This document shows, one piece after another, positions 1-19,623 of a stretch of 64,000 nt of DNA. The DNA comes from Marinimicrobium hydrolyticum (lineage in GTDB: Bacteria; Pseudomonadota; Gammaproteobacteria; Pseudomonadales; Cellvibrionaceae), in assembly GCF_030848505.1 (NCBI RefSeq), contig NZ_JAVDDU010000004.1:248001-312000 (forward strand). The letters are read 5' to 3'. Under the pieces are notes generated by a model. The model made no database searches. It was not told the DNA's origin and saw only the letters and a program-made list of their open reading frames with translations. The position numbers were made by a program, and so were the translations under genes. Position 1 is the stretch's first letter; every line of letters starts with the position of its first letter.

Positions 1-59
1 ACGTCGTAAAAAGGCACTGTCAGCTCAATGATTCCTTGAGGCAATTGCAGCTCAGTCAT
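1..59 (-). CDS. Acyl-CoA thioesterase, hotdog family (5' end only)
   Basis: An ATG at 59-57 overlaps the last codons of the ammonia-lyase gene and opens a frame that runs out of the window. The 19 visible residues begin MTELQLPQGIIELTVPF and continue YD. A short beta-strand followed by P-F-Y-D is the usual N-terminus of YbgC/FadM-type 4-hydroxybenzoyl-CoA thioesterases, in which the catalytic Asp follows shortly after. Such a thioesterase is a standard member of aryl polyene clusters, next to the ammonia-lyase and acyltransferase genes. The family call rests on few residues plus context. Confidence 0.55.
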   Translation of the reverse strand, partial: MTELQLPQGIIELTVPFYD

Positions 60-1608
60 GAGGATAGAAATCCCAAATTTGCTCGCGAATATGGTTAATG
101 GTTTCCCGCAAGGCTCCTTCCAGAGGACGATCCTCATCCACAACAGGGAAGTAGCCCCGTACCTGATCGTACATGGTTTCCAATGAAGGTGTGATGCTGC
201 TCTGATCAAAATCGGCGTCGTTCTTGCGCAAATACAGGGCCTGCGTACTGGCGAGTAAGCCAGCCGCCGCTACCTGTTCCGTCAACTCCAGTACTCGAAT
301 GCAGTCCCGCGCCGCGATGGTGCCCATGCTTACTTTATCCTGATTGTGGCATTCGGTGGAGCGAGAGAAAACGCTGGCGGGCATGGTGTTTTTCAGCGCT
401 TCGGCGGTCCAGGCGGAAATACCAATCTGCACCGCCTTGAAGCCGTGGTTGATCATGGCCCGCTCGGGCGTGGCGCCGGACAGGTTGGCCGGCAGGCCGT
501 TGTTGAATTTGGTGTCCATTAGCAATGCCATTTGCCGGTCGATCAAATCGGCGATGTTGGCCACGGCCACTTTAAGGGCATCCATGGCGAAGGCGATGTG
601 GCCACCGTAGAAATGTCCGCCGTGCAGGACGTGCTCTTCTTCGCCATCAATAATGGGATTGTCGTTGGCGCTATTCAGCTCGGTTTCGATGAACTGGCGC
701 ATCCAGCCCAGGGAATCCTGTAGCACGCCAATAATGTGCGGGGCACAACGCACAGAGTAACGATCCTGCAACCGGTCCGAATTGCGCGCCACCCGATCCA
801 TGTGCAGGTCGGAGCGAATCCAGGCGGCGATCTGGTTTTGGCCGGGGTGGGGTTTGACTGAAAACAGGCGCTCGTCAAAGTGGTTGGTGTTGCCTTTAAG
901 GCTCACGCTGACCATGGCGGTCAAGCGAGTGGCCAGCTTGGCCAAGTAGCTGGCCCGGTCGTAGGCCAAGCAGGCTACGGCGGTCATCACCGCCGTGCCG
1001 TTCATTATTGCCAGCCCCTCTTTGGGGTGCAGATGCAGCGGCTCAATACCCAGCTGCTTCAGTACCTGCGCCACCGGTACCGTTTCGCCTTGGTAGTAGA
1101 CGTCTCGCTCACCCAGCAAGGTGGCGGCCACATAGGACAAAGGCGTTAGATCACCGCTGGCGCCCACCGAGCCTTCTTGAGGAATCACCGGGACTATGTC
1201 CTGATTTATATACTCCACCAAGTGTTCCAGTAACTCCGGGCGCACGCCGGAATAACCGCGACTAAGAGAGGCCAAACGCGCGGCCAGAATGGCCCGCCCG
1301 TGGGCGTGGTCAAAATGAGCCCCGAGGCCACAGCCGTGGAAGCGAGTGAGATGAACGGGCAACTGCTCCACCAAATGGGGCGGCACGGTCACCGTGCAGG
1401 AATCACCGTAGCCGGTGGTAACCCCGTAGATCACGCCGTCTTCCCGCCACAAATCCTGCACAAAGCGTGCACTGGCTTCAATGCGTTTGCGCGCACCTTT
1501 GTCCTGAGTCAGGCTTGCCTGGCCGCCTTTGGCGATAGCGACGATATCCTCAATGGTTACGGCTTTGTGGCCGAAGACCACGGGCTTGTCTGAGCGGGAA
1601 TTTTTCAT
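52..1608 (-). CDS. MIO-type aromatic amino acid ammonia-lyase (HAL/TAL family)
   Basis: 518 residues, normal length for the histidine/phenylalanine/tyrosine ammonia-lyase family. The MIO prosthetic group triad Ala150-Ser151-Gly152 lies in GSVGASGDLTPLS. Catalytic Tyr61 is in YGVTTGYG and Asn203 in the NGT motif; QDRYSVR and SANDNP are also present. The enzyme removes ammonia from an aromatic amino acid to give a cinnamate-type acid. The substrate-selectivity pair reads Phe90-His91, which is neither the His-Leu of bacterial tyrosine lyases nor the Ser-His of housekeeping HutH, and no other hut gene is present. In this operon, together with an AMP-ligase and ACPs, it most likely supplies 4-hydroxycinnamate as the pigment starter, as in flexirubin biosynthesis. 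The gene follows the LpxL-like acyltransferase with a 15-nt gap and overlaps the next gene. Confidence 0.9.
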   Translation of the reverse strand: MKNSRSDKPVVFGHKAVTIEDIVAIAKGGQASLTQDKGARKRIEASARFVQDLWREDGVIYGVTTGYGDSCTVTVPPHLVEQLPVHLTRFHGCGLGAHFDHAHGRAILAARLASLSRGYSGVRPELLEHLVEYINQDIVPVIPQEGSVGASGDLTPLSYVAATLLGERDVYYQGETVPVAQVLKQLGIEPLHLHPKEGLAIMNGTAVMTAVACLAYDRASYLAKLATRLTAMVSVSLKGNTNHFDERLFSVKPHPGQNQIAAWIRSDLHMDRVARNSDRLQDRYSVRCAPHIIGVLQDSLGWMRQFIETELNSANDNPIIDGEEEHVLHGGHFYGGHIAFAMDALKVAVANIADLIDRQMALLMDTKFNNGLPANLSGATPERAMINHGFKAVQIGISAWTAEALKNTMPASVFSRSTECHNQDKVSMGTIAARDCIRVLELTEQVAAAGLLASTQALYLRKNDADFDQSSITPSLETMYDQVRGYFPVVDEDRPLEGALRETINHIREQIWDFYPHD

Positions 1609-1623
1609 GAATCACTGTCCTAC

Positions 1624-2607
1624 TTAAATGCTGTCGTTATCGTTGTTTGGGCGCACACCGGAGTTTGGGTCCGCCTGCGCCTCACGGGCGGGCGCGTCGT
1701 CGCCCCAATAATCGTAAAAATTAAACCACTGGTAGGGGTGGCGATGGCACAGGCCCTCCAGCACCCCCACGTATTTTTGCAAAAGCTCCTGGCACACCGT
1801 TTCGCGCTCCTGGCGCGGAACCTTTCCACCCGAGTACAGAGGCTTCAAGGTGGCTTGATAAACAAAGCCGGTGTGACAGGCGGCGATAAAAAACACCGGC
1901 GCCCCCAACATCAGAGCCAACCAGAAAGGACCGGCGGGCCACTGCACCTCCGAACCCAGAAAGGGCGCGCGCAGCGTCCGGTTCGGATTGTCCGGCGGCA
2001 GTCGATCCGCCAGCAAAATAACGAACTCTCCCTCGTCCAATCGCTCCCGCAGATAGATCGCGGTGGCGGGCGTAATCTCCTGCAGGGGTATCAAACGCAC
2101 CTGGGACTTCCGGTTTACATTTCCCATCACTCGATTGAACTTGCGGGTATTCTGGCCGTGCCGGATAACGTTGAGCTTTAAAGAACCATCGTTTTCCACC
2201 ACCGCGCGACACATTTCCAAGGTGCCAAAATGAGCCCCCAGCAACACAGCCCCGCGCTTGCTTTGTTGCAACTCCAGTAGCGTATGGTGGCCTTCAAAGG
2301 CCACATCGGAACGTTGAATCCGCCCCATCCAGGCCGCGACCCGCTCCATCAGATTGGCGCCAAAAGCCATGTGATGCCGCCACACCTGCCAGAGCCCGGC
2401 GGGCCGCCCCAGCGCCCGGCTTAAATACTGAGCGGAGTGGCGCCTCGTAGACCGGCGGGTCAGGAAGAAGTACGTCACCACTACTCCAACCAGCGGGTAC
2501 ATAAGCCAGCGGCCGAAAAACCGATACAGCACCACTAAAAAGGCCATACCCCAGTAATGGCCCCGCTCTTTCATACTGGCCCAATGGGTGCTCTGCGGCT
2601 CGGTCAT
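1624..2607 (-). CDS. LpxL/HtrB-family lipid A-type acyltransferase
   Basis: 327 residues from the ATG at 2607, which lies 7 nt after the glycosyltransferase stop. The longer frame to 2703 adds a Cys-rich stretch that overlaps the upstream gene and is unlikely to be translated. The protein has an N-terminal membrane segment (about residues 22-48) and the HX4(D/E) acyltransferase motif as His126-F-G-T-L-Glu131 within VLLGAHFGTLEM. This fold transfers acyl chains from ACP to a lipid or sugar acceptor at the inner-membrane face. Acyltransferases of this family occur next to a GT2 enzyme in aryl polyene clusters, where they help build the lipid anchor of the pigment. That role is inferred from context. 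Confidence 0.85.
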   Translation of the reverse strand: MTEPQSTHWASMKERGHYWGMAFLVVLYRFFGRWLMYPLVGVVVTYFFLTRRSTRRHSAQYLSRALGRPAGLWQVWRHHMAFGANLMERVAAWMGRIQRSDVAFEGHHTLLELQQSKRGAVLLGAHFGTLEMCRAVVENDGSLKLNVIRHGQNTRKFNRVMGNVNRKSQVRLIPLQEITPATAIYLRERLDEGEFVILLADRLPPDNPNRTLRAPFLGSEVQWPAGPFWLALMLGAPVFFIAACHTGFVYQATLKPLYSGGKVPRQERETVCQELLQKYVGVLEGLCHRHPYQWFNFYDYWGDDAPAREAQADPNSGVRPNNDNDSI

Positions 2608-2614
2608 GGCAATC

Positions 2615-3388
2615 TCACGGCTGACTTTCCCGCTCGCCGGAAGGCAGTTGGCGGCGTACCAGCCGATACAGTAGCAGTGGCAAGCGTGCCAGCATACCGA
2701 CACAGAGCCGCGTATGCATCCAACTGATGGCCAGGTTGTCGCGCCAGAGGCGAAAATTGGAAATGCCGTTTTCCGGATAGATCACCCGGGTGGGCACAGC
2801 CATCACTGGCATGCCCCGCCAGGACAGACGTACGGCCACTTCCGTGTCGAAGTCCATGCGTCGGCCGATACGTACCCGGTCCGCCAGCGCCAGGGTTTCC
2901 GCCAGTGGGTAGACCCGAAAGCCGCACATGGAATCGCGGATCTCCAAAGACAGCGTCTCCACCCAGACCCAAAAGTGGGTGATATAGCGGCTGTAAAAAC
3001 GATGCCGGGGCACCGACTCGTCGTATTCGGGTACGCCGGAAATCAGCGCCTGCGGAAATTGCTCGGCCAGGGCCAAAAAACGCGGTATGTCCTCTATGTT
3101 GTGCTGGCCGTCGGCATCCACTTGCACCGCGTGGGTGTAACCCAACTCGGCGGCCCGGCGCATGCCCAAAATCACAGCGCTGCCTTTGCCCCGGTTGGGA
3201 AACTGCTCGCACAGTTCGCTGCCGGTTTCGCGGCACAAGGTCCGAAGCAGTTCAGTGTCTTTGGGGTTACCACCGTCGTTCACCACCACGCAGGGCACGT
3301 CGAGGGCTCGAATGAGCGGCAATGACTCGGCCAGCAACTGCGCGTGATTGTAGACCGGAATGACCACACAGGGGGCGAAAGTTCGCAT
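2615..3388 (-). CDS. Family 2 glycosyltransferase
   Basis: 257 residues from the ATG at 3388; an upstream in-frame start at 3412 would overlap the dehydratase gene by 20 nt. The GT-A fold is shown by CVVIPVYNHAQLL at the N-terminus, VVNDGG at 35-40 and the metal-binding DXD as Asp91-Ala-Asp93 in QVDADGQH. The protein resembles DPM/polyprenol-type GT2 enzymes and is cytosolic or peripheral. It lies directly upstream of the LpxL-like acyltransferase, and in some APE clusters the two functions are fused. It probably glycosylates the lipid or resorcinol anchor of the pigment; the acceptor cannot be read from sequence. Confidence 0.88.
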   Translation of the reverse strand: MRTFAPCVVIPVYNHAQLLAESLPLIRALDVPCVVVNDGGNPKDTELLRTLCRETGSELCEQFPNRGKGSAVILGMRRAAELGYTHAVQVDADGQHNIEDIPRFLALAEQFPQALISGVPEYDESVPRHRFYSRYITHFWVWVETLSLEIRDSMCGFRVYPLAETLALADRVRIGRRMDFDTEVAVRLSWRGMPVMAVPTRVIYPENGISNFRLWRDNLAISWMHTRLCVGMLARLPLLLYRLVRRQLPSGERESQP

Positions 3389-3392
3389 CACT

Positions 3393-3743
3393 TCAGCCAC
3401 CCTCGGCAACACCGATGCCGCCTGTGGAACAGCGACCCCGCTGATTGTGGTAGCTGAATTTCAGCAGCTGGCGGTCCGCGAGCCAATCCAGGGTTAGCGT
3501 CAGCTGTACGGGCGGACGCACCAACTGCTGAAACTTTACCGAGCGAAAGCCACGAAATTGGAGTGTTTTGTTGAAGTGTTTCTGAGCCAAATCCAGAGCC
3601 CACCCGACCTGCACCACCCCCGCAAGCACGGGTAAGTTATCAAAGTGGCCCGCAAAGCAGGGCATATCCGGCTCCAGCTTCAAGGTAACCACCAAGTGCT
3701 CATCCGTTTGTTCCAGAATTTCGTAGGGAGGAAAGATCATCAC
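3393..3743 (-). CDS. Hotdog-fold 3-hydroxyacyl-ACP dehydratase (ApeI type)
   Basis: 116 residues with the FabA/FabZ-like active-site stretch GHFDNLPVLAGVVQ around residues 32-45, His being the catalytic base. It is shorter than FabZ (about 150), as is usual for the pigment-cluster ApeI type. It should dehydrate the 3-hydroxyacyl-ACP intermediate after each ketoreduction so that the chain stays fully conjugated. The start (3743 or 3740) overlaps the AMP-ligase stop by 4 nt, so the two are probably translationally coupled. Two further hotdog proteins lie at 18862-19149 and 19192-19623. Confidence 0.85.
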   Translation of the reverse strand: MMIFPPYEILEQTDEHLVVTLKLEPDMPCFAGHFDNLPVLAGVVQVGWALDLAQKHFNKTLQFRGFRSVKFQQLVRPPVQLTLTLDWLADRQLLKFSYHNQRGRCSTGGIGVAEGG

Positions 3744-5107
3744 CGATGGCTCCCGGTCAACAGCGTCTGCAAGTCAGTCTCGGTCACTTTGCCCTGAGCG
3801 TTGTACGGCAAATTGTCCACATAACGCCAGCGCCGCGGCAACAGGGGGGCTTCAAAGTAGGCCAGCAAATCACGGCGCAGTCGCTGGTTCAAGGCCAGTT
3901 TGCCCTGCGCATCCAACAGCGTCTGACCTTCTCTCGAGAGCGTCGCCACTACTCCAACTTCCTCGCGCCGGCCGCGCACGACCGTCACACGCGCCGAGGC
4001 GATGGCGGGGTGCGACTCCAAATGTTTTTGCATTTCGGTTAGCGAGAGGCGCTTGCCCTCAACTTTCACCACTCGGTCCGCCCGGCCTAGAAGCGCGAAG
4101 CGTCCATCCTCAAAAACTTCCGCCCGATCGCCCATATCAAATGAGTCTTCTGACCCCAGGTGAGGGCTATTAACCCGTAAACAACCTTGAGAAGAAAGAC
4201 TGATGGCAACACCGGGCAGAGGCTCCCAGCGGTCACCCTCAGTGCGTCGACGCCAGGCAACGCCACCGGTTTCGGTGCTGCCCAAAATCTCTAAAGGGGC
4301 TCGTCCCGTGAGTTCGGCCATGGCCAAGGCATACTGTTCGGCCAGGGGTCCGCCGGAAGAAACGATCTCCGCCAGACCACCCGGCTGGGCTTGGAAGGCA
4401 GGCGCTTGCGGCAAGCGCGATAAATGCGTTGGGCTGGACACCAGCGTGGCTGGCTGCCATTCCGCCAGACGCTTGACCAGCTCTTCCGGATACTGGCAGG
4501 GGGCCACCACAAAAGGCGCGCCCCGCCACCAGGGCCACAGCACGCTGTGCAAAAGTCCGTAAATATGTTGATGGGAAACCGTGGAGATAACGCTGGCTTT
4601 ACCCATCTGATCACCAAAGCAGCGCTGTAAAGTCGCCAGCTCGGACTCCAACAACACCAGAGTTTTGTGCACGGGTTGGGGTTCGCCCGTGGAGCCGGAC
4701 GTGAACAGTACCAATTCGATGGAAGTATCAGGGCTTGGCAGGTCAGAGCGTGGACCTTGGATCAGGCGATCTGGGGTGAGCTGCGTTTTGGCCAGTTCGG
4801 GTAGAGGTGCGTCGGTAAGCAGGACATCGAACGCTCGGGCCAACTGATGGGCCGTTCCCGCCTGCATATTGTGTGGCATAACGATTTGTTTGCCCGCCAG
4901 GGCCAGAGCCATAAACCCGCACAGAAAGTCCCAGGCATCTTGATACCAAATACCCCAACGCTGCTCAGGTCGTGCCGCCAGCGCCTGGCCCAGTGTGCTG
5001 GCGCGCTCGCGCAGCTGATCGCGACTGAAACTTCCGTGCGCGCTCAGGGCTACAGGCTGTGGGCCGCCTGCAAGGCAGTGTTGGCGTAAATCGATGGAAG
5101 GGGTCAT
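3740..5107 (-). CDS. AMP-dependent acyl/aryl ligase of the aryl polyene pathway
   Basis: 455 residues, an ANL-superfamily adenylating enzyme. The phosphate loop is LVLFTSGSTGEPQPVHK, with TSGSTG at 136-141. The A5-type motif is ILGSTETGG, the A7/A8 region contains DMGD and GRADRVVKVEGKRLSL, and the C-terminal catalytic Lys lies in NAQGKVTE near residue 445. It is expected to activate 4-hydroxycinnamate, the product of the ammonia-lyase in the same operon, and load it on an ACP as polyketide starter. It overlaps the membrane-protein gene upstream and the dehydratase downstream by 4 nt each. Confidence 0.92.
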   Translation of the reverse strand: MTPSIDLRQHCLAGGPQPVALSAHGSFSRDQLRERASTLGQALAARPEQRWGIWYQDAWDFLCGFMALALAGKQIVMPHNMQAGTAHQLARAFDVLLTDAPLPELAKTQLTPDRLIQGPRSDLPSPDTSIELVLFTSGSTGEPQPVHKTLVLLESELATLQRCFGDQMGKASVISTVSHQHIYGLLHSVLWPWWRGAPFVVAPCQYPEELVKRLAEWQPATLVSSPTHLSRLPQAPAFQAQPGGLAEIVSSGGPLAEQYALAMAELTGRAPLEILGSTETGGVAWRRRTEGDRWEPLPGVAISLSSQGCLRVNSPHLGSEDSFDMGDRAEVFEDGRFALLGRADRVVKVEGKRLSLTEMQKHLESHPAIASARVTVVRGRREEVGVVATLSREGQTLLDAQGKLALNQRLRRDLLAYFEAPLLPRRWRYVDNLPYNAQGKVTETDLQTLLTGSHR

Positions 5108-5670
5108 AGTCCGTGTTTTTTATAAAATACCAGGCGTCGGTAACCGTACTCGGCGGCGAACAAAGTGCCCACGACGACGTACGCCAGAAGGCCGTTGTAC
5201 AGCGCCCACACTTCCCGGCTGGCCACCAATGCCGTGAACGCGGAAACGCTGGCATTGAGCAGAAAAAAGCCCACCCACAATCGCGTCACCCAAAGGGTGT
5301 AGCGCAGCACAGCCGGGGGCAATTCCTGGTAGGACACACCTCGATGCAGAGCCGCCATCCGGGTAGGCACCGTGGGGGGCCAGATCAGGCCTGCGGCGAA
5401 CACCGCGGCCAAGGCCAGGTTGATTCCGGTTGGGAGAAGCCGCAGTAGCACTTCACTGTTGGCGTACCAGAGCAGTGCCGCCACGCCCGCGCTACAAACT
5501 ACCAAAGCGCCGCGCTGCCAAAACTTATCGGCTTTAAGCAGCGCCCGGAACAGGTAAACCGCGACCAGAGCCAAACCCAACACGCCGGGCTCCACCCACT
5601 GAATACCCAAGTAAACCATGAGCGGATAGAGGACCAGCAAGGCCCCCGCGAGGAGATTAGCCCAGCGCAT
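5104..5670 (-). CDS. Small integral membrane protein of APE clusters (COG4648-like)
   Basis: 188 residues with about five hydrophobic segments, among them residues 4-22, 26-42, 54-68 and 78-97, plus one near the C-terminus. I see no catalytic motif. A membrane protein of this size between the ACP genes and the AMP-ligase gene is a constant part of aryl polyene clusters, and its biochemical role is not established. It overlaps the ligase start by 4 nt and starts 7 nt after the ACP gene ends. Confidence 0.75.
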   Translation of the reverse strand: MRWANLLAGALLVLYPLMVYLGIQWVEPGVLGLALVAVYLFRALLKADKFWQRGALVVCSAGVAALLWYANSEVLLRLLPTGINLALAAVFAAGLIWPPTVPTRMAALHRGVSYQELPPAVLRYTLWVTRLWVGFFLLNASVSAFTALVASREVWALYNGLLAYVVVGTLFAAEYGYRRLVFYKKHGL

Positions 5671-5677
5671 CCGTGTG

Positions 5678-5920
5678 TTAGTTCATCAGCTGATCGATAA
5701 CATCCACGGCATCGCCAATGGTGCGCACGCCCTTGAATTGTTCGGGCTTTAGCTGTTTCCCGGTCACGCTGTGAATTTTTGCGGCCAGATCAATGGCATC
5801 AATGCTGTCAAAATCCAGATCCGCGTACAGATCGGCATCGAGGGTAATGTCTTCTTCATCCAGCATGAAGGATTTGACCAATACCGCTTTCAGTTCTGTA
5901 AAAATTTCTTCTTTGGTCAT
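5678..5920 (-). CDS. Acyl carrier protein (second of the tandem pair)
   Basis: 80 residues from the ATG at 5920, which lies 4 nt after the stop of the upstream ACP; the in-frame ATG at 5932 would overlap that gene. The phosphopantetheine attachment site is Ser39 in DLDFDSIDAID, and the protein is strongly acidic with the usual four-helix pattern. Paired ACPs of different type are typical for aryl polyene clusters, where they carry the starter and the growing polyene chain. A 4'-phosphopantetheinyl transferase was not seen in this window. Confidence 0.93.
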   Translation of the reverse strand: MTKEEIFTELKAVLVKSFMLDEEDITLDADLYADLDFDSIDAIDLAAKIHSVTGKQLKPEQFKGVRTIGDAVDVIDQLMN

Positions 5921-5924
5921 ACCA

Positions 5925-6194
5925 CTACCCACTCACTGTCTGCTGTTGTGCCAGAACGAAATCCCGCAGGGAGGCTACCGAGCGAAAATGCTCTTTATTG
6001 TGCTCCGAGTTCGCATCGATTTTAACATTGAAGTATTTCTGCAGAGCCAACCCTAACTCTAGCGCGTCGATAGAGTCGAGCCCCAACCCTTCCCCAAAAA
6101 GTGGGGCGTCGGTATCGATGTCATCGATGGTCATGTCTTCGAGTTCCAACTCATCAATGATCATTTGTTTAATTTGTACGGTGATATCAACCAT
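5925..6194 (-). CDS. Acyl carrier protein (first of the tandem pair)
   Basis: 89 residues, with attachment site Ser41 in LGLDSIDALEL and conserved acidic residues in helix II. The gene overlaps the acyltransferase stop by 8 nt and is followed 4 nt later by a second ACP gene. The two proteins differ clearly in sequence, suggesting separate partners (for example ligase/starter versus extension) rather than a recent duplication. Which ACP carries which intermediate cannot be decided here. Confidence 0.93.
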   Translation of the reverse strand: MVDITVQIKQMIIDELELEDMTIDDIDTDAPLFGEGLGLDSIDALELGLALQKYFNVKIDANSEHNKEHFRSVASLRDFVLAQQQTVSG

Positions 6195-7035
6195 ATAACT
6201 TCAAGCCTTGTTCAAAATAATTCTGTAAATAGCGGGTGAGCTGTCGGGCTGCCGCAGGTTTATCGTCGTAAGCTTCTATTAATTCCACTGGCTGCAATAT
6301 TTCGCCCACGTGAACGTTGATCTCGGCCCGACGAGGTGGAATCCGGTACCAGGGCTCTCCTTTAATCAGGGTGATCGGGTCGCAGGTGATAAACACTGTT
6401 AACACAGGCGCGCCGGTGCGCACCGCCACTTGTGCCATACCGCGCTTGAAGGCCAGGCCCTCACCCGGCACCGTGCGCGAACCTTCAGGAAAAATCAGTA
6501 TGGCCTCATCGTGGTCCAATGCCTGACGGCATCCCGCCAATAACTCACTGCCATTTTCATTGCTGATAAAACCCGCACCGCGCATCACGCCGCCGATAAA
6601 TCGGCTGCGCCACAGCTCGCCTTTGACCACGCAATTGGCACTGGGCAAATAGGCCAGCAAAATCACCACGTCAATCAAGGTCGGGTGATTGGCAATCACG
6701 ATACAGCCGCCTGATCGTTGCAGTAACTCCAGGTTGTGAAGTCGCACCCGAATCAGCCCCAGGGTTTCCATCATGGCCACAAAGAACCGGAAGTTACGCT
6801 TTTGCAAAGTCCGCACCCGCCCGGTCTTGGTGGCTTCGTCCCCCGGTAGGGCGCGCAGCAATGGAAACAACAGCAGCGTTTGTAAAAAACCGCCGACAAA
6901 AAAGAACGCAAAGCAGAACCCAGTTGCCAGGATTCGCCAGATGCGATCCGCGCTGTATCTAAGGTAGCTCAAGCTCTCGCTCCCAGTGCCAGTTGGTGCG
7001 CTCAGTACAAAATTCCAGATGCGGGGTCCGCCCAA
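6187..7035 (-). CDS. PlsC-family 1-acylglycerol-3-phosphate-type acyltransferase
   Basis: Up to 282 residues. The HX4D motif is His-P-T-L-I-Asp in VIANHPTLIDVV, and the second conserved block is FPEGSRTVPGEG. There is a hydrophobic N-terminal segment (about residues 36-60). The first ATG (7035) overlaps the upstream gene by 77 nt; a TTG near 6976, just before that gene's stop codon, is an alternative that would remove about 20 residues. The enzyme should move an acyl chain onto a lipid-like acceptor at the inner membrane. It is a regular member of APE clusters and probably helps form the membrane anchor of the pigment. Confidence 0.88.
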   Translation of the reverse strand: MGGPRIWNFVLSAPTGTGSESLSYLRYSADRIWRILATGFCFAFFFVGGFLQTLLLFPLLRALPGDEATKTGRVRTLQKRNFRFFVAMMETLGLIRVRLHNLELLQRSGGCIVIANHPTLIDVVILLAYLPSANCVVKGELWRSRFIGGVMRGAGFISNENGSELLAGCRQALDHDEAILIFPEGSRTVPGEGLAFKRGMAQVAVRTGAPVLTVFITCDPITLIKGEPWYRIPPRRAEINVHVGEILQPVELIEAYDDKPAAARQLTRYLQNYFEQGLKLYG

Positions 7036-10786: not shown

Positions 10787-11045
10787 CGCGGTTACCGAAG
10801 AATTGAAGCTGGCTCTAAAACAAATGATTGTCGAGGAGTGCGATAAGGACTTTGAGCCCGAGTTTATCGGTGACGACACCCCTCTGGTAGGTGGCGACCT
10901 GGACCTGGACTCTCTGGACGTATTGCAGATTTGTATGGCCGTAAAGAATCAATACGACGTGCGTATTGAAGGATCCGCGGAAGCGCGCCGGGCTCTGAAA
11001 TCCGTGAATGTGCTCGCCCAGACCATCGTTGACGCCCGCCGCTGA
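10779..11045 (+). CDS. Acyl carrier protein (third ACP of the locus, DAR-side)
   Basis: 88 residues with phosphopantetheine site Ser45 in LDLDSLDVLQI. The start overlaps the permease end by 8 nt and its stop codon shares a base with the ketosynthase start. It is unlike the two ACPs of the minus-strand operon and is encoded with its own ketosynthase pair. It may therefore serve a separate chain, such as the second acyl arm of the dialkylresorcinol (DarC-like role); this assignment is inferred from position. Confidence 0.9.
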   Translation: MTNAVTEELKLALKQMIVEECDKDFEPEFIGDDTPLVGGDLDLDSLDVLQICMAVKNQYDVRIEGSAEARRALKSVNVLAQTIVDARR

Positions 11046-13077: not shown

Positions 13078-13084
13078 TCCTTTT

Positions 13085-14662
13085 TTAATCCGCCAGCTCC
13101 TTATATTCAAACCAATCGAAGTCCGCGTGCTGGCGCGTACCGGCCAAGTCCTGACACGCCACGCCGACAAAATTGCCGGTAAAGCCAATGGGCAGGGCGT
13201 GCTCGTCAGAGAGAATCGACGCGTCCTCTTCGCCCCCCGCGGCGCTCCACTGCTGGCCGTCTCGGGAGTAGAAAAACCGAATGCGGTCGTTTTTGATCTC
13301 CAGTTTCAGACACACCTGCTGCCAATCATCCAATGGGTATTCTTTTTCAATCAGGAAGCTGACCTTGCCTCGTTCGCAGCGCATTAACCCGAGGCAGCGC
13401 TTAGAGTGGGGCGCGTGAGTGAGAAACAAGTAGTAGAAGTTATCGGTGCTGTAGAAGGCCACCAGGCCTGCCATCTGCTGAAAGTTTTCGGGGTGGAAAT
13501 CGAGGCAGGTGGAGGCTTCAATATGGAAGCTCTTTTGGCGCCGCGCCACCAGACTCTGCTCAAAGCGAGAGACGATACTCTCCCGGCCGTATAGGCGCAG
13601 AAAACCTGGGCGCTCGGTCAAGCTCGCCATCTGTTCATCAATGGGCACGCGCGGCGCCTGCCAGTGTGGACCCAGGTGTGTGGTGTCGAATTCGTCCCGC
13701 CGGATCGGCTCTGGCCAAGGGTGCTCGGGCAGCTCGGGCGCTTCGAACCGATCCAGCGGCGTTTTGCCGCCCGAAGCCAAACGCGGCCAGCCGTCCACCC
13801 ACACAATTTTTTGTAACGAGGTTTCGCGGCCCAGGATGGAACGGCCGTTGGCCTGGGGCCTTCGGCACAAGTGAGCAAAGGCCCAGGTGCCGTCCCGGTG
13901 TTGCACCAGACTGCCGTGGCCGGCGGATTGCAAAGGCAGTTCGGGAACGCCAGCGCTGGTAATCAAAGGGTTATCCGGCATGAGCTCGTAGGGGCCGAGA
14001 ATATCCCGGGAACGCGCCACCGTTTCGGCATGCGTAGTAAAGGTGCCGCCCTCGGCGGTTAGCAGGTAATACCAGCCATCCACTTTATACAGGTGCGGAC
14101 CCTCTACCAGTCCCAGCTCAGAGCCACGAAAAATATTGGTCACCGGACCCACCAGCGCGCCTTTTTCCGCATCGAACTCCTGGATCAATATGCCGCCAAA
14201 ATTGTGCTCCTCCGGGCGGTGATCCCAGACCATGTTGAGCAGCCACTTGCGGCCATCGTCGTCATGAAACAGTGACGGGTCGAAGCCCGAAGCGTTAAGA
14301 AAAATAGGTTCGGACCAAGGGCCTTCGATATGGGGAGCGGTGACCAGAAAGTTACGCGCGTCTTTAAAGATACCGGTCCAGTCGCGCACGTCGGTGTAGA
14401 TCAAATAGAACATCCCATCCGCGTAGCTTAGGCTGGGCGCCCAGACGCCGCCGGAGTTGGGGCGACCGCGCAAATCCAGTTGGGAATAGCGCGTCAGTGG
14501 ATGAGTCAGCACCCGCCAGTTCACCAGATCCTTGGAGTGGGAAATCTGTACGCCGGGAAACCATTCAAAGGTGGATGTGGCGATGTAGTAGTCGTCCTCA
14601 ACGCGGACGATGGAGGGGTCCGGATTGAATCCGGTTAGCACTGGGTTGTTTACGGCTGTCAT
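13085..14662 (-). CDS. GH43 beta-xylosidase / alpha-L-arabinofuranosidase
   Basis: 525 residues from the ATG at 14662, preceded by AAGG at a spacing of about 8; a GTG two codons upstream is possible. The five-bladed propeller of family GH43 covers roughly residues 1-310. The general base Asp is in GFNPDPSI near the N-terminus, the pKa-modulating Asp in WLLNMVWDH, and the general acid Glu in GLVEGPHLY. The C-terminal 190 residues form the beta-sandwich typical of XynB-type xylosidases. No signal peptide is seen, so it should act in the cytosol on imported xylo-oligosaccharides. Its place inside a pigment locus is odd; a hairpin at 14704-14723 separates it from the BtrH-like gene. Confidence 0.93.
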   Translation of the reverse strand: MTAVNNPVLTGFNPDPSIVRVEDDYYIATSTFEWFPGVQISHSKDLVNWRVLTHPLTRYSQLDLRGRPNSGGVWAPSLSYADGMFYLIYTDVRDWTGIFKDARNFLVTAPHIEGPWSEPIFLNASGFDPSLFHDDDGRKWLLNMVWDHRPEEHNFGGILIQEFDAEKGALVGPVTNIFRGSELGLVEGPHLYKVDGWYYLLTAEGGTFTTHAETVARSRDILGPYELMPDNPLITSAGVPELPLQSAGHGSLVQHRDGTWAFAHLCRRPQANGRSILGRETSLQKIVWVDGWPRLASGGKTPLDRFEAPELPEHPWPEPIRRDEFDTTHLGPHWQAPRVPIDEQMASLTERPGFLRLYGRESIVSRFEQSLVARRQKSFHIEASTCLDFHPENFQQMAGLVAFYSTDNFYYLFLTHAPHSKRCLGLMRCERGKVSFLIEKEYPLDDWQQVCLKLEIKNDRIRFFYSRDGQQWSAAGGEEDASILSDEHALPIGFTGNFVGVACQDLAGTRQHADFDWFEYKELAD

Positions 14663-14703
14663 GCGCACACCTTGTTTGGGGTCCTTGCCAAACCGCCAAC
14701 AAG

Positions 14704-14723
14704 GCGGGGCTATTCAACCCCGC
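14704..14723 (-). terminator. GC-rich hairpin between BtrH-like gene and GH43 gene
   Basis: Stem GCGGGG (14704-14709) pairs with CCCCGC (14718-14723) around an 8-nt loop. It lies between the stop of the BtrH-like gene (14749) and the start of the GH43 gene (14662). There is no clear T-run on the minus strand, so it may attenuate rather than end transcription. Confidence 0.4.
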
Positions 14724-14748
14724 AGTATCGCAACGCTGCTAAAAACGG

Positions 14749-15768
14749 TCAACGAGACGCGACGGCCGAATCAGACTTTGGCACCTGCAGCCAAGTGCGT
14801 AAGTCCAGCCATAACTGTCGCTCCCCCTCGGCGCAGCTGAGCAGCAGTTGCGCCAGCAGGGCATGATCGATGGCTTCCGGTTGTTTGCACTGTTTGGCCA
14901 CCGCCAAAGCAAAATTTCTCCAGGTATCACCCACGGCGGTCATGGCCTCGGAGGCGCGCTCGAGTTCTGGCTCACTCAGGAGCTCTGCCGCCTCCTGCAG
15001 AAAGGATGCATAAATAAACCGAAACCCGGCTCCACCGGTACCAATCTCTTCCTGCATGCGCACTATGTGACCCAAAAACAAACGCTGCTCTTGCGGTGAA
15101 CCCTTGAGTTTGGCGATTTTGCGGGCCAAAAAGCGAATACCCTTAACGCCAATAATGGGGAGGGGTGCACCCAGCATGACCTTCACATTGCGGCTGATGG
15201 CGGCGCGAATGACGCGAGGATAATCGATGGACTCGGGCACGGACTCCACAGTGTACATAAGCCCTTTGGGTGCCAGAGGGCCGCGTACAAAGCGCGCCCG
15301 GTTCAAATGCTTGCCACTGACGGTCACCGGTTCTTCAAATATCGGGTCGCTGATTTGGTACTGGTCGCCCTCGCGGCCGTACACCATCAGGTTGTGAGCA
15401 TTGAAGTGAAAACGCATTTCTTCCGGAAAGTAAGGCAGGTAGTAGACGGACGTTTGTAGCCCCACTAACTGACCCTCGTCCAGCGCTTCGTCCAGCGCTT
15501 GGGCGCCGGCGATGGGATCTTTAAACCGCCGGAAGCTCACTTTCACCCCCAGACGTTTGCACAACCCTTTGATAATGAATTGCGGGGGCAAGCGGTAGGC
15601 GATCAGAGGCTGCCCGGAAAGCTTAACCACAGGGATATAAGCAAACGCTAGTGCATTGGCCAGACCAAACGCCATGGGCTCGGACACTTTCAGACCGCGC
15701 TGGGACAGCAGCGCCGAGATAACGCCGCTTTCACAGTGAGCGGACTGTTGATGCGAAAAGGAAGTCAT
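14749..15768 (-). CDS. BtrH-like Cys-dependent acyltransferase (BtrH N-terminal + DUF4872)
   Basis: 339 residues. The N-terminal half resembles the BtrH N-terminal domain, a papain-like fold. Cys12 follows His11 at the start of HCESGVISALL, His125 lies in HFNAHNLMVYG and Asp141 in YQISDP, giving a plausible Cys-His-Asp triad. The C-terminal half (about 155-330) is helical and resembles DUF4872, with GTGGAGFRFIYASFLQEA. In butirosin biosynthesis BtrH moves an acyl group from an ACP onto an amino sugar. Here, overlapping the small gene next to darB, it is a good candidate for joining the polyene acyl-ACP to the dialkylresorcinol hydroxyl; that function is inferred. Confidence 0.82.
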   Translation of the reverse strand: MTSFSHQQSAHCESGVISALLSQRGLKVSEPMAFGLANALAFAYIPVVKLSGQPLIAYRLPPQFIIKGLCKRLGVKVSFRRFKDPIAGAQALDEALDEGQLVGLQTSVYYLPYFPEEMRFHFNAHNLMVYGREGDQYQISDPIFEEPVTVSGKHLNRARFVRGPLAPKGLMYTVESVPESIDYPRVIRAAISRNVKVMLGAPLPIIGVKGIRFLARKIAKLKGSPQEQRLFLGHIVRMQEEIGTGGAGFRFIYASFLQEAAELLSEPELERASEAMTAVGDTWRNFALAVAKQCKQPEAIDHALLAQLLLSCAEGERQLWLDLRTWLQVPKSDSAVASR

Positions 15769-16169
15769 TGAGTGTCCGGTGTTTGAGTGAGTTGATCAAC
15801 GGAGATATCCAGCGCTTCGGCGTAGCGTTGCAGGAGAGACTGAGACAAACGCCGAAACGGCTTGGGCCGAAAATGCCACTTCACCCGCCAGCGGAACAAG
15901 CCGGTTACCTGCGCCAGCAGGGCAGGGTCCATGCGGCACTGATACATGTGATAAAACAGCGGCGACTTCTCGCCAGCGCGCACCTGCTCCAACGCTTGGT
16001 CGGCCAGTTGCTGGTAGAGGGCTACGGCGTCTTTAGTCGCGGCGGCCTCTACCTCCCAGCCGGTAGAAGGCACTTGGGTGTAGGTCCCGTCCTGATCACG
16101 GGCGTAGAGCAGTTTTTTGTGTCCGGCGTAGGTGCTGCTGTTGTCCTGAGGAACCTCATCGGTGCGCAT
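15765..16169 (-). CDS. Small protein of unknown function in the dar operon
   Basis: 134 residues from the ATG at 16169, 17 nt after the darB stop; a longer frame to 16247 would overlap darB. The protein is soluble and mainly charged. An N-terminal low-complexity part (to about 25) is followed by a helical region, then a basic stretch FRWRVKWHFRPKPFRRLS near residues 90-107, and a C-terminal helix ending DQLTQTPDTQ. I do not recognise a family. It is fixed between darB and the BtrH-like gene and overlaps the latter by 4 nt, so it is probably needed for the same step, for example as a partner of the acyltransferase or of an ACP. Confidence 0.7.
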   Translation of the reverse strand: MRTDEVPQDNSSTYAGHKKLLYARDQDGTYTQVPSTGWEVEAAATKDAVALYQQLADQALEQVRAGEKSPLFYHMYQCRMDPALLAQVTGLFRWRVKWHFRPKPFRRLSQSLLQRYAEALDISVDQLTQTPDTQ

Positions 16170-16186
16170 GTTTTGCTCCTGAGCCG

Positions 16187-17338
16187 CTATACCACTTCGA
16201 GCAGCATATAGGCGACGGAAAAACGGCCGCTTTCGGGGATGTAACACAAGACTTTCTCACCCGGCTGCAGACGGTCCGAACGCAGCAGGTCGTCGAGCAT
16301 AATGTACATGGAGGCGGAGCCGGTGTTGCCCTTCTCGGCCAGATTGGTAAACCACCGGCTCTGAGGAAGATCAAAACCCACCCGTTGCATACCGACGTAC
16401 AGCCGATCGCGGAAATAGTGGGACGAGTAATGGGGCAAAAAGTGGTGAATATCCTCCGCCTTCAGGCCCCGGCGCTCCTGCAGCGTTTCCAGGGGGCGCT
16501 CGGCAGTGTAGTGAATCACGTGCTCGTTCAGTTGCTTGACGTCCTGTTTGACGGCAAGGAAACCTTCCCGCTCACGAGTGGCACCATCCACCTGCGACCA
16601 GCCGGTCAAACGGCCGTCGTCTTCCTTGCGCGCGCCGGCATACATACACGCGCTCATTTCGTTGGCGTAAGAAAAGACATCGATCCAGTGGATTTTCAAA
16701 CAGCGCTGATCTGAACGAGGCTCACTTTCCAGCAACAGGGCTCCGGCCCCGTCCGAGAGCATCCAGCGCAAAAAGTCTTTTTCAAAGGCCAGCTCTGGAT
16801 GCTTTTCCAGTTGCTCCACCTTGTAGGCCACTTCTGGAGCGAAGTTTTCCGCGCGCATGACTTTTGACGCTGCTTCTGAAGCCGCCGCCACCGCGCTGCG
16901 GTGCACGCCAGCCGCGACGTTCAAGTAGGCGTATTTCAGGGCCGTCATGCCGCTGGCGCAAACGCCCGCTGTTGTAGCCACTTCACAGGGTGGCGAGGCG
17001 AGCTCACCGTGGACCATGGAGGCATGGCCGGGCATGAGTTGATCGGCGATGGTGGTCGCCGCCGCCAAACATGTCATGTCAGCGAGGGAAAACTGCTCGT
17101 CCTCCAGACCCTTGATAGCCTGCGCGCACAGTTGCGCGTTGGTGTAGTTGGGCTCACCGGTTTCAGGGTCAATGGCGTAGTAGCGGGTGGTGATCTTGTT
17201 GTTGCGCAAAACCATCTTGCGAGCGCGCGAAGGCCGGCCGTTGACCAGGCCCAGGCGCGCCTCCATGGCATTGTTATCCACCGGATCATTGGGCAGAAAC
17301 TGACTGGACTTGGTCACATAAACGGTGTTGTTGGACAT
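16187..17338 (-). CDS. darB: DarB, KAS III-like ketosynthase of dialkylresorcinol biosynthesis
   Basis: 383 residues with the KAS III triad: Cys127 in GVCASGMTAL, His in HHFLPHYSSHYF and Asn in KGNTGSASMY. The N-terminal signature FLPNDPVDNNAMEARLG and the following RPSRARK/RYYAID blocks are those of DarB proteins. DarB joins two beta-ketoacyl intermediates to give a cyclohexanedione that is aromatised to a 2,5-dialkylresorcinol. The gene lies 34 nt after darA and 17 nt before the small unknown gene. The presence of darA and darB beside aryl polyene genes is the hallmark of flexirubin or arcuflavin-type hybrid pigments. Confidence 0.92.
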   Translation of the reverse strand: MSNNTVYVTKSSQFLPNDPVDNNAMEARLGLVNGRPSRARKMVLRNNKITTRYYAIDPETGEPNYTNAQLCAQAIKGLEDEQFSLADMTCLAAATTIADQLMPGHASMVHGELASPPCEVATTAGVCASGMTALKYAYLNVAAGVHRSAVAAASEAASKVMRAENFAPEVAYKVEQLEKHPELAFEKDFLRWMLSDGAGALLLESEPRSDQRCLKIHWIDVFSYANEMSACMYAGARKEDDGRLTGWSQVDGATREREGFLAVKQDVKQLNEHVIHYTAERPLETLQERRGLKAEDIHHFLPHYSSHYFRDRLYVGMQRVGFDLPQSRWFTNLAEKGNTGSASMYIMLDDLLRSDRLQPGEKVLCYIPESGRFSVAYMLLEVV

Positions 17339-17372
17339 CGGAAACAGCTCAATCGAGTAGGCTAGATACAGG

Positions 17373-18308
17373 TTACTCGCCCGACGGCCAGGCGAAATGC
17401 TGGCGCTGCTGGGCGATACGTCGGCGCAACAGTGGCGAAAACAGCTTTTTTAGCAAAGCGCTGATGGGCACCAGGGTAAGTATCATAGTAATTAAAAAAA
17501 TCAGGTAGATAACCGCCAAGGGTTTACGCAGTGGCGCATCCGGGCCACCGCAGGCGAGAAAAAGCTTGCCCCAGATATAAAAACTGCGCGAGGCGATCTT
17601 CTCGCTGGGGATCAACTTATCGCGAATTTCCACCGCACCCATGCCCTGCCACACGGTTTCATCCAGGGGTTGTTCGCTATTCAGTCGCTGCCTAAGGGCC
17701 TCGCCGAAACGGCGCGCGCCCGCGATGTCCTTGTCAGACACGCCGGCCCGCGGGATGCCGAAGCGATAGGGCCCGCGGTTACCGGTCAGCAGCCACAGCG
17801 GCGTGGACAGAAAACTGGCGGCACTGCCGCCTTCGTCCACCAAAGCCATATTACCAATCAATCGAGCACCGAGACGCGTCATGTGCTTACGCACTTTTTC
17901 GTGGGCTTGCAGCCACATATTCCGGCAGGCGATAACTGTGACCACCGGCGTGTCCTTCAGCAGTTTTTCCGCCAGCTCGCCGCGCAGAAATGCCGACACT
18001 GGAATCGACGGGGCCAGATACCAGACCTGATAGCCGAGGATCACCAGATCGTAGGAATCCTTGAGTGCGCTGGTGTCCAGCGCCAATTCACAACCGGTCT
18101 CGTGCACCGATTCCGGGAAGGCATTGATAAAGCGGATCACCGGCCAGGGGTAAGGGTAGGGATTGGCTGGGCGCAGCTCGAGGAAATCCACCTCGACGGC
18201 GGGATCTTCCTGCAAGGCCGACACTACCGACTCCAGCACCCGATCCAGTTGCCCCGTCTGGGAATAGTGCAATACCAATAGGCGTTTTTTCGGTTCCATT
18301 TGCTGCAA
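17373..18308 (-). CDS. darA: DarA, dialkylresorcinol-forming enzyme (aromatase type)
   Basis: 311 residues. The N-terminus LLVLHYSQTGQLDRVL is a flavodoxin-like phosphate-binding loop, and LVILGYQVWYLAPSIPVSAFL and TPVVTVIACRNMW continue that fold. A C-terminal hydrophobic segment (about 265-290) suggests membrane association. This architecture belongs to DarA, which acts with DarB to convert the cyclic intermediate to the aromatic dialkylresorcinol. The start is the ATG at 18308 or the one three codons later. It is the first gene of its operon; the promoter should lie within 18309-18435 opposite the DUF2141 gene. Confidence 0.9.
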   Translation of the reverse strand: MQQMEPKKRLLVLHYSQTGQLDRVLESVVSALQEDPAVEVDFLELRPANPYPYPWPVIRFINAFPESVHETGCELALDTSALKDSYDLVILGYQVWYLAPSIPVSAFLRGELAEKLLKDTPVVTVIACRNMWLQAHEKVRKHMTRLGARLIGNMALVDEGGSAASFLSTPLWLLTGNRGPYRFGIPRAGVSDKDIAGARRFGEALRQRLNSEQPLDETVWQGMGAVEIRDKLIPSEKIASRSFYIWGKLFLACGGPDAPLRKPLAVIYLIFLITMILTLVPISALLKKLFSPLLRRRIAQQRQHFAWPSGE

Positions 18309-18435
18309 AGATAGTCCTCGGGACGGCTTTTGTGGTTATGATGTTGATGTGGCCCGGAGCCCGCTATTACCGACGCGTCTCGTGATAATGTGGCGCAAAG
18401 TCTACCATAGCCAATGAACCGTGTAAGTAAGCACT

Positions 18436-18873
18436 ATGCGCACTGTTTTGCTGTTAATTCTATTGGTCTTTGCCCGTGTTTCAGGGGCCTCAGAACCCTA
18501 CCAACTGACCGTGGAGGGCAATCGCTCTCCCGGGGCGGATCTGTACGTGGCCGTGTATCCAGAGAGAGCGAGAAGCTGGGATGCAGAACCGCTCGTGCAG
18601 CTACGCCATGTCCTGCCCGAATCCTCGGTTTTTACCATCGATCTGCCGCTGGACCCTGGCGCTTACGCCATTCGGGCTTTTGTGGATTTGAGTGGTGACG
18701 GGGAGCTGGCCACTGGCGAGCGGGGCAGACCTATAGAACCTTTCGCCATCAGCGTGGGGGAGGGGCGCCGGCAACCGTCCATGCACTTTAGGCGCTCGGT
18801 GTTCCTTCTGAGCGACGATCAGCCCGAGGTCACTCTGACATTGCGCTACCCGGAAGCGGCTTCAAACCATTAG
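18436..18873 (+). CDS. DUF2141 periplasmic or outer-membrane-associated protein
   Basis: 145 residues with an N-terminal signal peptide (about 1-18, cleavage after VSGA-S). The body matches DUF2141: a beta-rich domain with GAYAIRAFVDLSGDGELATG around residues 75-94 and a later GRPIEPFAIS block. Function of the family is unknown. It is often found next to lipid or pigment genes. It starts opposite darA and ends overlapping the convergent hotdog gene by 12 nt. Confidence 0.78.
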   Translation: MRTVLLLILLVFARVSGASEPYQLTVEGNRSPGADLYVAVYPERARSWDAEPLVQLRHVLPESSVFTIDLPLDPGAYAIRAFVDLSGDGELATGERGRPIEPFAISVGEGRRQPSMHFRRSVFLLSDDQPEVTLTLRYPEAASNH

Positions 18874-19149
18874 TGCAGTCGCCTGCAGCACATCGCCGTC
18901 CGGGCCCGAGATACGCACTTTGATCCGGGGCCAGGCGCTCTCGTCCACATGCATCTGGGCCAGCTCGCCCGGGCGCAAGGGAGAGAGAAACTTCACTTTT
19001 TTAAAGCTTTGCAATTGCGACTGAGGGTGCTCTGCCAGCAAGGTGCGCTCTATCCGGCCCAGCAGCCAAGCGCCAGGCGCCAAAGGCATTCCTGGGAAGT
19101 GCCCCTGTACACAGGGCTCATCGGCGCTAAGGGTAAATTCACTGCGCAT
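18862..19149 (-). CDS. Short hotdog-fold dehydratase/thioester-binding protein
   Basis: 95 residues with QGHFPGMPLAPGAWLL around residues 15-30, the FabA/FabZ active-site stretch with its His, and VKFLSPLRPGE as the second conserved block. It is shorter than typical FabZ but retains the full hotdog core. Divergent from the ApeP-like gene at 19192, it is probably a further dehydratase of the pigment pathway, for example for the dialkylresorcinol acyl chains. No start alternative is needed. Confidence 0.8.
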   Translation of the reverse strand: MRSEFTLSADEPCVQGHFPGMPLAPGAWLLGRIERTLLAEHPQSQLQSFKKVKFLSPLRPGELAQMHVDESAWPRIKVRISGPDGDVLQATALMV

Positions 19150-19191
19150 GGGCTAAGATGTTTCCTAATTTACTGTTCTGACAGGACGGCC

Positions 19192-19623
19192 ATGACCACC
19201 GCGTTAAAACCTGCTTCGCTACTCCCTCACACCGGCGCCATGGTGTTGCTGGACCGTATTGATCGGTGGGACGACGAAACCATAGTCTGTACCAGCCACT
19301 CCCATCTGGCAGCCGATAATCCGCTTCGGGATGACGGCAGGCTGTCTGTGTACGCGGGAGTGGAATACGCCGCTCAAGCCATGGCGGCCCATACCCGGTT
19401 GCTCATCAGCGACTCAGCGCCACCGCGTAAAGGCTTTTTGGCGGTCGCTTCCAAGGTCACCGCCCACGCAGCCACACTCGATGAGCACACTCAGGAACTG
19501 ACCATTGAGGCTCAGACCATCGCCCAAAACCGGGACAGCTCAATGTACCAGTTTCGGCTCAGTGCGCAAGGACAGTTGATTTTGGAGGGGCAGTTAACGG
19601 CCGTACTCAGTGACGCCCCTTAA
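19192..19623 (+). CDS. 3-hydroxyacyl-ACP dehydratase (ApeP / COG4706 type)
   Basis: 143 residues from the ATG at 19192; a longer frame would run antisense through the neighbouring hotdog gene. The N-terminal LLPHTGAMVLLDRI is the characteristic motif of the COG4706 dehydratases, with His as probable base, and VYAGVEYAAQAMAAH is the central helix. In Escherichia coli aryl polyene synthesis the ApeI-ApeP pair forms the active dehydratase. Here the two putative partners are about 15 kb apart, unless ApeP pairs with the hotdog protein encoded directly opposite. The gene overlaps the convergent GGDEF/EAL gene by 17 nt. Confidence 0.85.
   Translation: MTTALKPASLLPHTGAMVLLDRIDRWDDETIVCTSHSHLAADNPLRDDGRLSVYAGVEYAAQAMAAHTRLLISDSAPPRKGFLAVASKVTAHAATLDEHTQELTIEAQTIAQNRDSSMYQFRLSAQGQLILEGQLTAVLSDAP

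Follow-up and report, generated by a model that had tools for sequence, protein, structure and literature searches.

The window analysed here, a stretch of 64,000 nucleotides (C25:248001-312000) from the genome of Marinimicrobium hydrolyticum (3.99 Mb, 30 contigs), opens with genes of the aryl polyene (APE) type lying directly beside darA and darB of the dialkylresorcinol (DAR) pathway. The initial annotation had recognised this arrangement in a gammaproteobacterium, and it is borne out by family matches over cut-off at window positions 52-7035 and by DarB and DarH, both likewise over cut-off. A ketoreductase and APE ketosynthases had been predicted to the left of the window, and these were found on the same contig when the cluster was completed beyond position 1. 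The whole cluster occupies C25:237979-267623 (window about -10021 to 19623), approximately 29.6 kb with 32 genes, not counting a glycoside hydrolase family 43 (GH43) gene. Its gene content, gene order, catalytic sets and conservation in relatives identify it as a real, complete and conserved APE-DAR hybrid gene set, and every cluster gene is a single open frame.

Throughout, "over cut-off" denotes a match score above the model's own threshold, written as score/cut-off, and 20 of the cluster proteins were scanned against NCBIfam. Positions marked L002 refer to the same contig read leftward, the window position being the L002 position minus 18000. The APE half, which includes the acyl carrier proteins (ACPs) of the polyene pathway, comprises the following genes:

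L002:7979-9205, minus strand, first ApeR-type ketosynthase (NF006587, 688/470 bits)
L002:9227-10447, minus strand, second ApeR-type ketosynthase (NF006587, 694/470 bits)
L002:10451-11194, minus strand, ketoreductase (NF004200, 392/273)
L002:11204-11722, minus strand, ApeP-type dehydratase (32.6/27 bits)
L002:11656-12843, minus strand, ApeO (best solved match 6qsp_A, 348 bits)
Left half (L002), minus strand, DUF3261 protein, weak (16.3/22.3, below cut-off)
L002:13355-14605, minus strand, halogenase-like flavoenzyme (PF04820, 85.7/21)
L002:14621-16984, minus strand, MMPL exporter (39.6/20.5)
L002:16981-17799, minus strand, LolA-like protein (LolA2_flexi, 47/125, below cut-off)
L002:17616-18209, minus strand, YbgC-like thioesterase (TIGR00051, 58.2/68.7, below cut-off)
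Window 52..1608, minus strand, aromatic amino-acid ammonia-lyase of the methylidene-imidazolone (MIO) type, resembling phenylalanine and tyrosine ammonia-lyases (PF00221, 561.8 bits)
Window 1624..2703, minus strand, LpxL-like acyltransferase (PF03279, 52/22.3 bits)
Window 2615..3412, minus strand, GT2 glycosyltransferase (PF00535, 42.3 bits)
Window 3393..3743, minus strand, ApeI-type dehydratase (PF22818, 53/28.5 bits)
Window 3740..5107, minus strand, AMP-ligase, ApeH/ArcT-like, putatively loading the starter (PF00501, 78.5 bits)
Window 5104..5670, minus strand, membrane protein, called ApeG-like from its position alone (no family model matches over cut-off)
Window 5678..5932, minus strand, ACP 1 (PF00550, 43.9 bits)
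Window 5925..6194, minus strand, ACP 2 (PF00550, 37.2 bits)
Window 6187..7035, minus strand, PlsC-like acyltransferase, ApeD-like (PF01553, 73.1 bits)
Window 6959..7693, minus strand, ApeC, half-size chain-length factor (PF13723, 209 bits)

The ApeO-ApeC pair of ketosynthase and half-size chain-length factor (CLF) is present, ApeO matching 6qsp_A best and ApeC matching 6qsp_B (108.9 bits) and 7f28_A (69.7 bits) as its sole solved structures; ApeR, the ketoreductase, ApeI/ApeP, the ACP pair and the AMP-ligase of the APE cluster type are likewise all present. The best solved relatives of the second ApeR-type ketosynthase are 4ewg (563 bits) and 7f27 (496 bits), and we take 7f27 and 7f28 to be the Acinetobacter structures of a single study. 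That study assigns 6QSP to ApeO-ApeC from X. doucetiae and describes 4EWG as an ApeR protein (PMC8358021). The two ApeR-type ketosynthases form an adjacent pair (L002:7979-10447); the E. coli cluster has a single gene.

The ASG triad occurs in all 13 ammonia-lyase sequences compared, as does NQD at motif 2; motif 1 reads F-H in 12 of them and Y-H in one. The protein scores below the cut-offs of both the FlxA (NF053541, 356/700) and the HutH (410/539) models of NCBIfam, and we rejected a plain histidine ammonia-lyase because of NQD at motif 2 together with the HutH score. For the AMP-ligase the best NCBIfam model is 4-coumarate-CoA ligase (117, below its cut-off of 334.7). The halogenase-like enzyme possesses the motifs WxWxIP, GESLLP and KxGAxF, which are presumably marks of flavin halogenases, in common with all 16 sequences compared, its own included. 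Among solved structures it matches best 3nix (344 bits, "flavoprotein/dehydrogenase"), a Cytophaga protein, followed by CmlS (151) and other halogenases. Comparison with ApeJ as described in PMC8253772 suggests that the GT2 gene and the preceding LpxL-like gene are perhaps a split ApeJ; in the same source the name COG4648 belongs to ApeG of E. coli.

The DAR half and the right edge of the cluster are arranged as follows, in window positions:

8724..9626, plus strand, ATP-binding cassette (ABC) exporter ATPase of the DAR block (PF00005, 116.5 bits; adjoins DAR genes in relatives)
9623..10786, plus strand, ABC exporter permease of the DAR block (PF12698, 90 bits)
10779..11045, plus strand, ACP of the DAR block (PF00550, 23.6/20.8 bits)
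11045..12205, plus strand, ketosynthase of the DAR block, Cys-His-His present (PF02801, 65.1 bits)
12202..13077, plus strand, CLF-like ketosynthase partner without the active-site Cys (PF00109, 25.6 bits)
14749..15768, minus strand, DarH, a BtrH-related acyltransferase (NF053550, 479.1/300 bits)
15765..16247, minus strand, DarG-family protein, corresponding by position to darD of Azoarcus (NF053536, 175.9/70)
16187..17338, minus strand, DarB, DAR cyclase of the StlD/DarB family (NF005293 subfamily, 590.6/450 bits)
17373..18308, minus strand, DarA, DAR aromatase (from the neighbourhood of DarB)
18436..18873, plus strand, DUF2141 protein kept at the edge of family loci (PF09912, 38.3 bits; synteny)
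18862..19149, minus strand, FabZ/FabA-like hotdog protein, weak (PF07977, 19.6/23 bits)
18949..19623, plus strand, second ApeP-like dehydratase, weak (PF22817, 17.6/27 bits; position conserved)

The ApeP-like function that the initial annotation had seen in the window is not confirmed for the right-edge gene (17.6 against a cut-off of 27), and is found over cut-off (32.6) in the gene to the left. Its further statement, that no active APE ketosynthase lies in the window, stands for the APE pathway, since the one ketosynthase there with Cys-His-His (11045-12205) belongs to the DAR block.

DarB finds its best solved match in StlD (5gk0, 472.9 bits) and is 88% identical to the DarB of a Marinimicrobium metagenome-assembled genome. 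Of 44 aligned rows, 43 retain its catalytic Cys, His and Asn; that of genome G014 lacks the Cys column, which we attribute to the row holding only the last 400 residues of a 629-aa frame. No library match over cut-off was obtained for DarA, nor did any curated DarA model match in the NCBIfam scan. We accept its identity because a DarA relative lies near DarB in 30 of the 31 other loci with DarB over cut-off (family and class stretches) and in none of seven loci with DarB-like proteins below cut-off; in the 31st locus (G377) DarB starts 355 bases from the contig end. DarA is conserved over 14 aligned sequences.

DarB over cut-off is encoded in 15 of 144 genomes of the family (Cellvibrionaceae), and the surroundings of all 15, the host included, were examined. 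APE genes occur in the DarB stretch in ten: the host, G017, G040, G043, G044, G045, G046, G048, G049 and G116. In G053, from the host's genus, the contig ends inside the APE part, where ApeC and a PlsC piece remain. In the other four (G111, G143, G126 and G032) the APE genes lie on a different contig, where 13, 13, 12 and 8 APE-type genes, respectively, were found around ApeC, and two of the four DAR contigs are under 18 kb. The window's gene order, passengers apart, recurs in eight of the ten, that is in all but the host itself and G116, where the order differs; the comparison covers 32-40 kb, and the far-left ketosynthases KS1 and KS2 lie beyond the stretch in all eight.

In the class sample of 369 gammaproteobacterial genomes, DarH is over cut-off in 18, own included. 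Eight of the 17 other DarH loci are linked to APE genes (G395, G490, G298, G214, G501, G431, G384 and, counted using the next stretch, G215) and nine either lack such linkage or lie on short contigs (G322, G496, G229, G305, G377, G274, G411, G461 and G300). G431, which belongs to another family, shares the window's order, but matches to the halogenase-like gene, the DAR-block ACP, DUF3261 and the three genes at the right edge were not found in it. The window's gene arrangement is one that family members share, and it was observed once outside the family.

The two halves are also associated irrespective of linkage. We scored as ApeC-type any protein over cut-off for PF13723, a label used because this family, to which ApeC belongs, is broad. 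An ApeC-type protein is encoded in 87 and DarB over cut-off in 21 of the 369 class genomes; all 21 DarB genomes, own included, have the ApeC-type protein, against 66 of the 348 others (Fisher p about 9e-15, with kinship between genomes uncorrected). None of the four class genomes whose sole DarB-like protein is under the cut-off (G220, G445, G162 and G367) has one. Beyond the class sample all 22 further DarH genomes possess an ApeC-type protein: 14 from the family, 7 from the phylum sample and G763, which is 56% complete and has a DarH piece over cut-off with the ApeC-type protein on the same contig. Twenty stretches around such ApeC-type genes, from genomes where linkage was not evident or not examined, were inspected, and 18 of these hold at least 5 APE-type genes (G377 has 2 and G869 has 3).

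Because this co-occurrence is complete among DarB genomes, linked or not, and is absent from the four below-cut-off genomes, resorcinols of the StlD/DarB type in Gammaproteobacteria may be almost only partners of aryl polyenes. We advance tentatively, as one possibility that falls well short of the probable, this generalisation together with its local corollary: that the product here would be an ester between a dialkylresorcinol and a halogenated polyene started from a phenylpropanoid, of a flexirubin-like class made with a different ammonia-lyase, with DarH as the candidate enzyme for joining the halves.

A rather unlikely alternative, if the most serious one, is that two chemically separate pathways adjoin each other, one yielding an aryl polyene bound to lipid, as in E. 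coli, and the other a free dialkylresorcinol exported by the ABC system. This would suit the DAR block, which has its own ACP, ketosynthase and exporter, and the GT2, LpxL and PlsC genes of the APE half, of a kind thought to attach APE to lipid in E. coli (PMC8253772). The APE and DAR loci are indeed apart in several relatives, yet the Azoarcus genes, too, are distributed over separate loci, and the product described from them is a hybrid nonetheless (PMC3949708). Two independent pathways also sit poorly with the restriction of DarB over cut-off to class genomes that have an ApeC-type protein, and with the interlocking of APE and DAR blocks, in an order conserved in the family.

Acquisition of a flexirubin cluster from Bacteroidetes is very improbable. 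The initial annotation had regarded the exporter-ACP-ketosynthase-CLF block and the BtrH-like gene as unusually flexirubin-like, but the ABC exporter, ACP, ketosynthase and BtrH-like genes are ordinary DAR-locus genes, listed also for the Azoarcus dar locus (PMC3949708, Table 1). Its suggestion of separate assembly or transfer found no support: the APE half is proteobacterial by ApeO, ApeC and ApeR, which match enzymes of Xenorhabdus, Acinetobacter and Paraburkholderia, and the flexirubin-named NCBIfam models matched all fall below cut-off (FlxA 356/700, FlxB 286/340, LolA2_flexi 47/125, flexirubin_DarG 137/170). None of the proteins expected of a Bacteroidetes-type flexirubin locus (FlxA tyrosine ammonia-lyase, FlxB, LolA2_flexi and flexirubin DarG) was therefore identified. 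The narrow resorcinol_DarB model is likewise below cut-off (493/550); DarB, DarG and DarH each exceed the cut-off of their broader DAR model. What such a transfer could account for is the nearest solved relative of the halogenase-like enzyme, 3nix, and the ammonia-lyase and LolA-like genes, which are also present in flexirubin loci (PMC3992019).

In a midpoint-rooted DarB tree, which contains no DarB of a flexirubin producer, the family hybrids of the window's order (the host and eight others) form one group of 11 with G053 and G395 (support 97/91). The family members G116, G111, G143, G126 and G032 are placed elsewhere in the tree, and hybrid loci are interspersed with DAR-only ones, so that movement or duplication of DAR genes within the class is probable. 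The DarB-like proteins that score below cut-off branch outside, some of them on long branches of uncertain placement. The sole Bacteroidota DarB-like proteins found are on four plasmids (Bacteroides ovatus, Bacteroides faecis, Phocaeicola and Prevotella), and neither DarA nor APE genes were detected in the three plasmid regions examined (a DarA search and the PLSDB gene table, which is incomplete); these are not flexirubin loci. The tree is accordingly silent on a flexirubin origin, as it lacks producer sequences and the plasmid loci cannot stand in for them. In the regions from Prevotella, B. ovatus and Phocaeicola (L115, L116 and L118) the DarB-like ketosynthase gene lies directly behind a TetR-type or helix-turn-helix regulator gene.

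Least probable of all is a decayed or silent cluster that makes nothing: the GH43 gene inside it implies that insertions are tolerated at one junction, but each gene is one open frame, the catalytic sets are kept, and the insert occupies the convergent inter-operon gap, a position at which some relatives hold other passengers. This gene reads:

13085..14668, minus strand, GH43 beta-xylosidase, passenger, between the CLF-like gene and DarH (PF04616, 329 bits)

It is most likely an inserted passenger outside the pathway, because no GH43 match was found in the 21 family and 17 class stretches examined and because other open frames occupy the same gap elsewhere; a role as pathway glycosidase was rejected on these grounds. 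In the sister genome G053 the gap, measured between match ends, is 164 bases without GH43, and it is 15-158 bases in G040, G044, G046 and G048. Other frames fill it in G045 (two enzyme-like frames), G049 and G043 (a GGDEF protein, in the same direction relative to the dar genes) and G017, and G116 has 981 bases with no clear gene. The GC content of the GH43 gene is an ordinary 0.585 (neighbours 0.567-0.61). We conclude that the gap is an insertion-tolerant spot.

A complete APE-DAR hybrid pigment cluster remains the best explanation, and one that we hold with considerable confidence. From its genes we infer an ester product, its starter, its halogenation and the role of DarH, as follows. The ammonia-lyase would convert phenylalanine or tyrosine to cinnamate or 4-coumarate, which the AMP-ligase would load onto an ACP; ApeO-ApeC and the ApeR-type ketosynthases would then extend this starter with malonyl units, each reduced and dehydrated by the ketoreductase and ApeI/ApeP to give a polyene acid, and the halogenase-like flavoenzyme may halogenate the ring. 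DarB is predicted to join two fatty-acid intermediates and DarA to aromatise the result to a 2,5-dialkylresorcinol, to which the polyene is most likely esterified by DarH, in NCBIfam a BtrH-related acyltransferase. Transport of the pigment to the outer membrane would fall to the ABC exporter, MMPL and LolA-like proteins; there it would probably act as antioxidant and light shield, a role demonstrated for xanthomonadins.

Several points weigh against this scheme. The hybrid pigment is predicted from the genes, and the choice of DarH as ester former is a guess; G247, G341 and G364 have DarA, DarB and an ApeC-type protein with no DarH in the 19-20 kb around DarB, which weakens a DarH-specific link to APE. 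DarA rests on its neighbourhood, its fold model being poor (mean predicted local distance difference test, pLDDT, 45.6, from a two-row alignment), and the thioesterase, LolA-like, DUF3261 and hotdog assignments all score under their cut-offs. Motif 1 of the lyase does not decide the starter amino acid, phenylalanine and tyrosine both being possible; FlxA is a tyrosine lyase despite an unexpected motif 1 (PMC3992019). The halogenase-like gene need not halogenate, because arcuflavin is described as not brominated though its locus lists a halogenase (PMC3949708).

Some neighbouring and distant loci deserve mention. The true start of the second ApeP-like gene (18949..19623) is probably further in. 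Directly beside the cluster, at window 19607-22093, lies a PAS-GGDEF-EAL protein, present in G053 too, and a link of the pigment to cyclic-di-GMP is possible. Beyond the left end are a YaeQ protein, an ABC exporter and a helicase-like gene that is presumably UvrD-like. DarB-like proteins under cut-off in G014, G016, G018-G024, G030, G031 and also G162 and G367 are encoded by frames that, at about 624-645 aa, far exceed DarB in length, and make up a separate, possibly fused ketosynthase group; the G014 locus, the only one examined among these, lacks DarA. A linear plasmid of Streptomyces sp. NBC_00008 (L119) encodes a DarB-like protein and, after it, a DarA with 33% identity, together with ACPs, FabF, a P450 and an FAD monooxygenase, and we regard this as a resorcinol-type cluster.

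The cluster is a further case of the APE-DAR hybrid type already described. Ester products of this kind have been established for arcuflavin and flexirubin (PMC3949708, PMC3992019). Both pigments absorb near 420 nm. The dar locus of Azoarcus sp. BH72, the arcuflavin producer, likewise lists DarA, DarB, a small darD, a BtrH-like gene, an ABC exporter, ACP and ketosynthase, and its polyene genes in common with those here are AMP-ligase, ketosynthase, reductase, dehydratases, glycosyltransferase, acyltransferases, LolA, exporter and a halogenase-like gene (PMC3949708). In contrast to the single locus here, Azoarcus has two unlinked arc loci with the dar locus about 20 genes from one of them, and where an ammonia-lyase is present here the source lists a XanB2-type chorismatase (3-hydroxybenzoate starter) and a methyltransferase (PMC3949708); the scan of the cluster genes recognised neither a XanB2/ArcB chorismatase nor a methyltransferase, and the genome outside the cluster was not searched for a chorismatase. 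Judged by locus-tag order, the ABC/ACP/ketosynthase block is reversed with respect to Azoarcus. In Chitinophaga pinensis and Flavobacterium johnsoniae, too, the flexirubin clusters start from an ammonia-lyase and ligase and have type II polyene genes, LolA and DarA/DarB (PMC3992019); they differ in that ApeC, ApeO and ApeR are proteobacterial here and the flexirubin-named models stay below cut-off.

The APE clusters of E. coli, Acinetobacter and Xenorhabdus share ApeC, ApeO, ApeR, ketoreductase and ApeI/ApeP, as well as two ACPs, AMP-ligase, thioesterase, a LolA-like protein and an RND/MMPL exporter (PMC8253772, PMC8358021). As described they are without DAR genes; the present cluster has two ApeR-type genes and an additional halogenase-like gene. 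No ammonia-lyase figures among the E. coli genes and pathway steps examined (PMC8253772); the P. donghuensis APE cluster includes one among its genes common with V. fischeri (PMC5851621). Within the Gammaproteobacteria, three hybrid APE-DAR cluster types, V1-V3, have been described from marine Pseudomonas, with the product given as unknown (PMC10165715, 2023); by that description V1 combines a DAR cluster with an APE cluster resembling that of E. coli/V. fischeri. A resorcinol-arylpolyene cluster is noted in P. fulva 12-X (PMC5851621), and aryl polyene-resorcinol hybrids are listed for Pseudomonas (PMC8704066). DAR clusters were counted in 16 of 39 genomes listed in 2014, within or beside a polyene cluster in nine (PMC3949708). 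An open literature search returned no paper on Marinimicrobium and resorcinol, nor on arylpolyene, resorcinol and Cellvibrionaceae.

The tight co-occurrence of DarB with ApeC makes the joining of the two halves directly testable, with DarH as first candidate. The locus adds a complete, single-locus hybrid cluster in Marinimicrobium relatives, in an arrangement conserved in the family, and together with the published hybrids it speaks against flexirubin-like pigments as a marker of Bacteroidetes, as Schoner and others argued in 2014 (PMC3949708).

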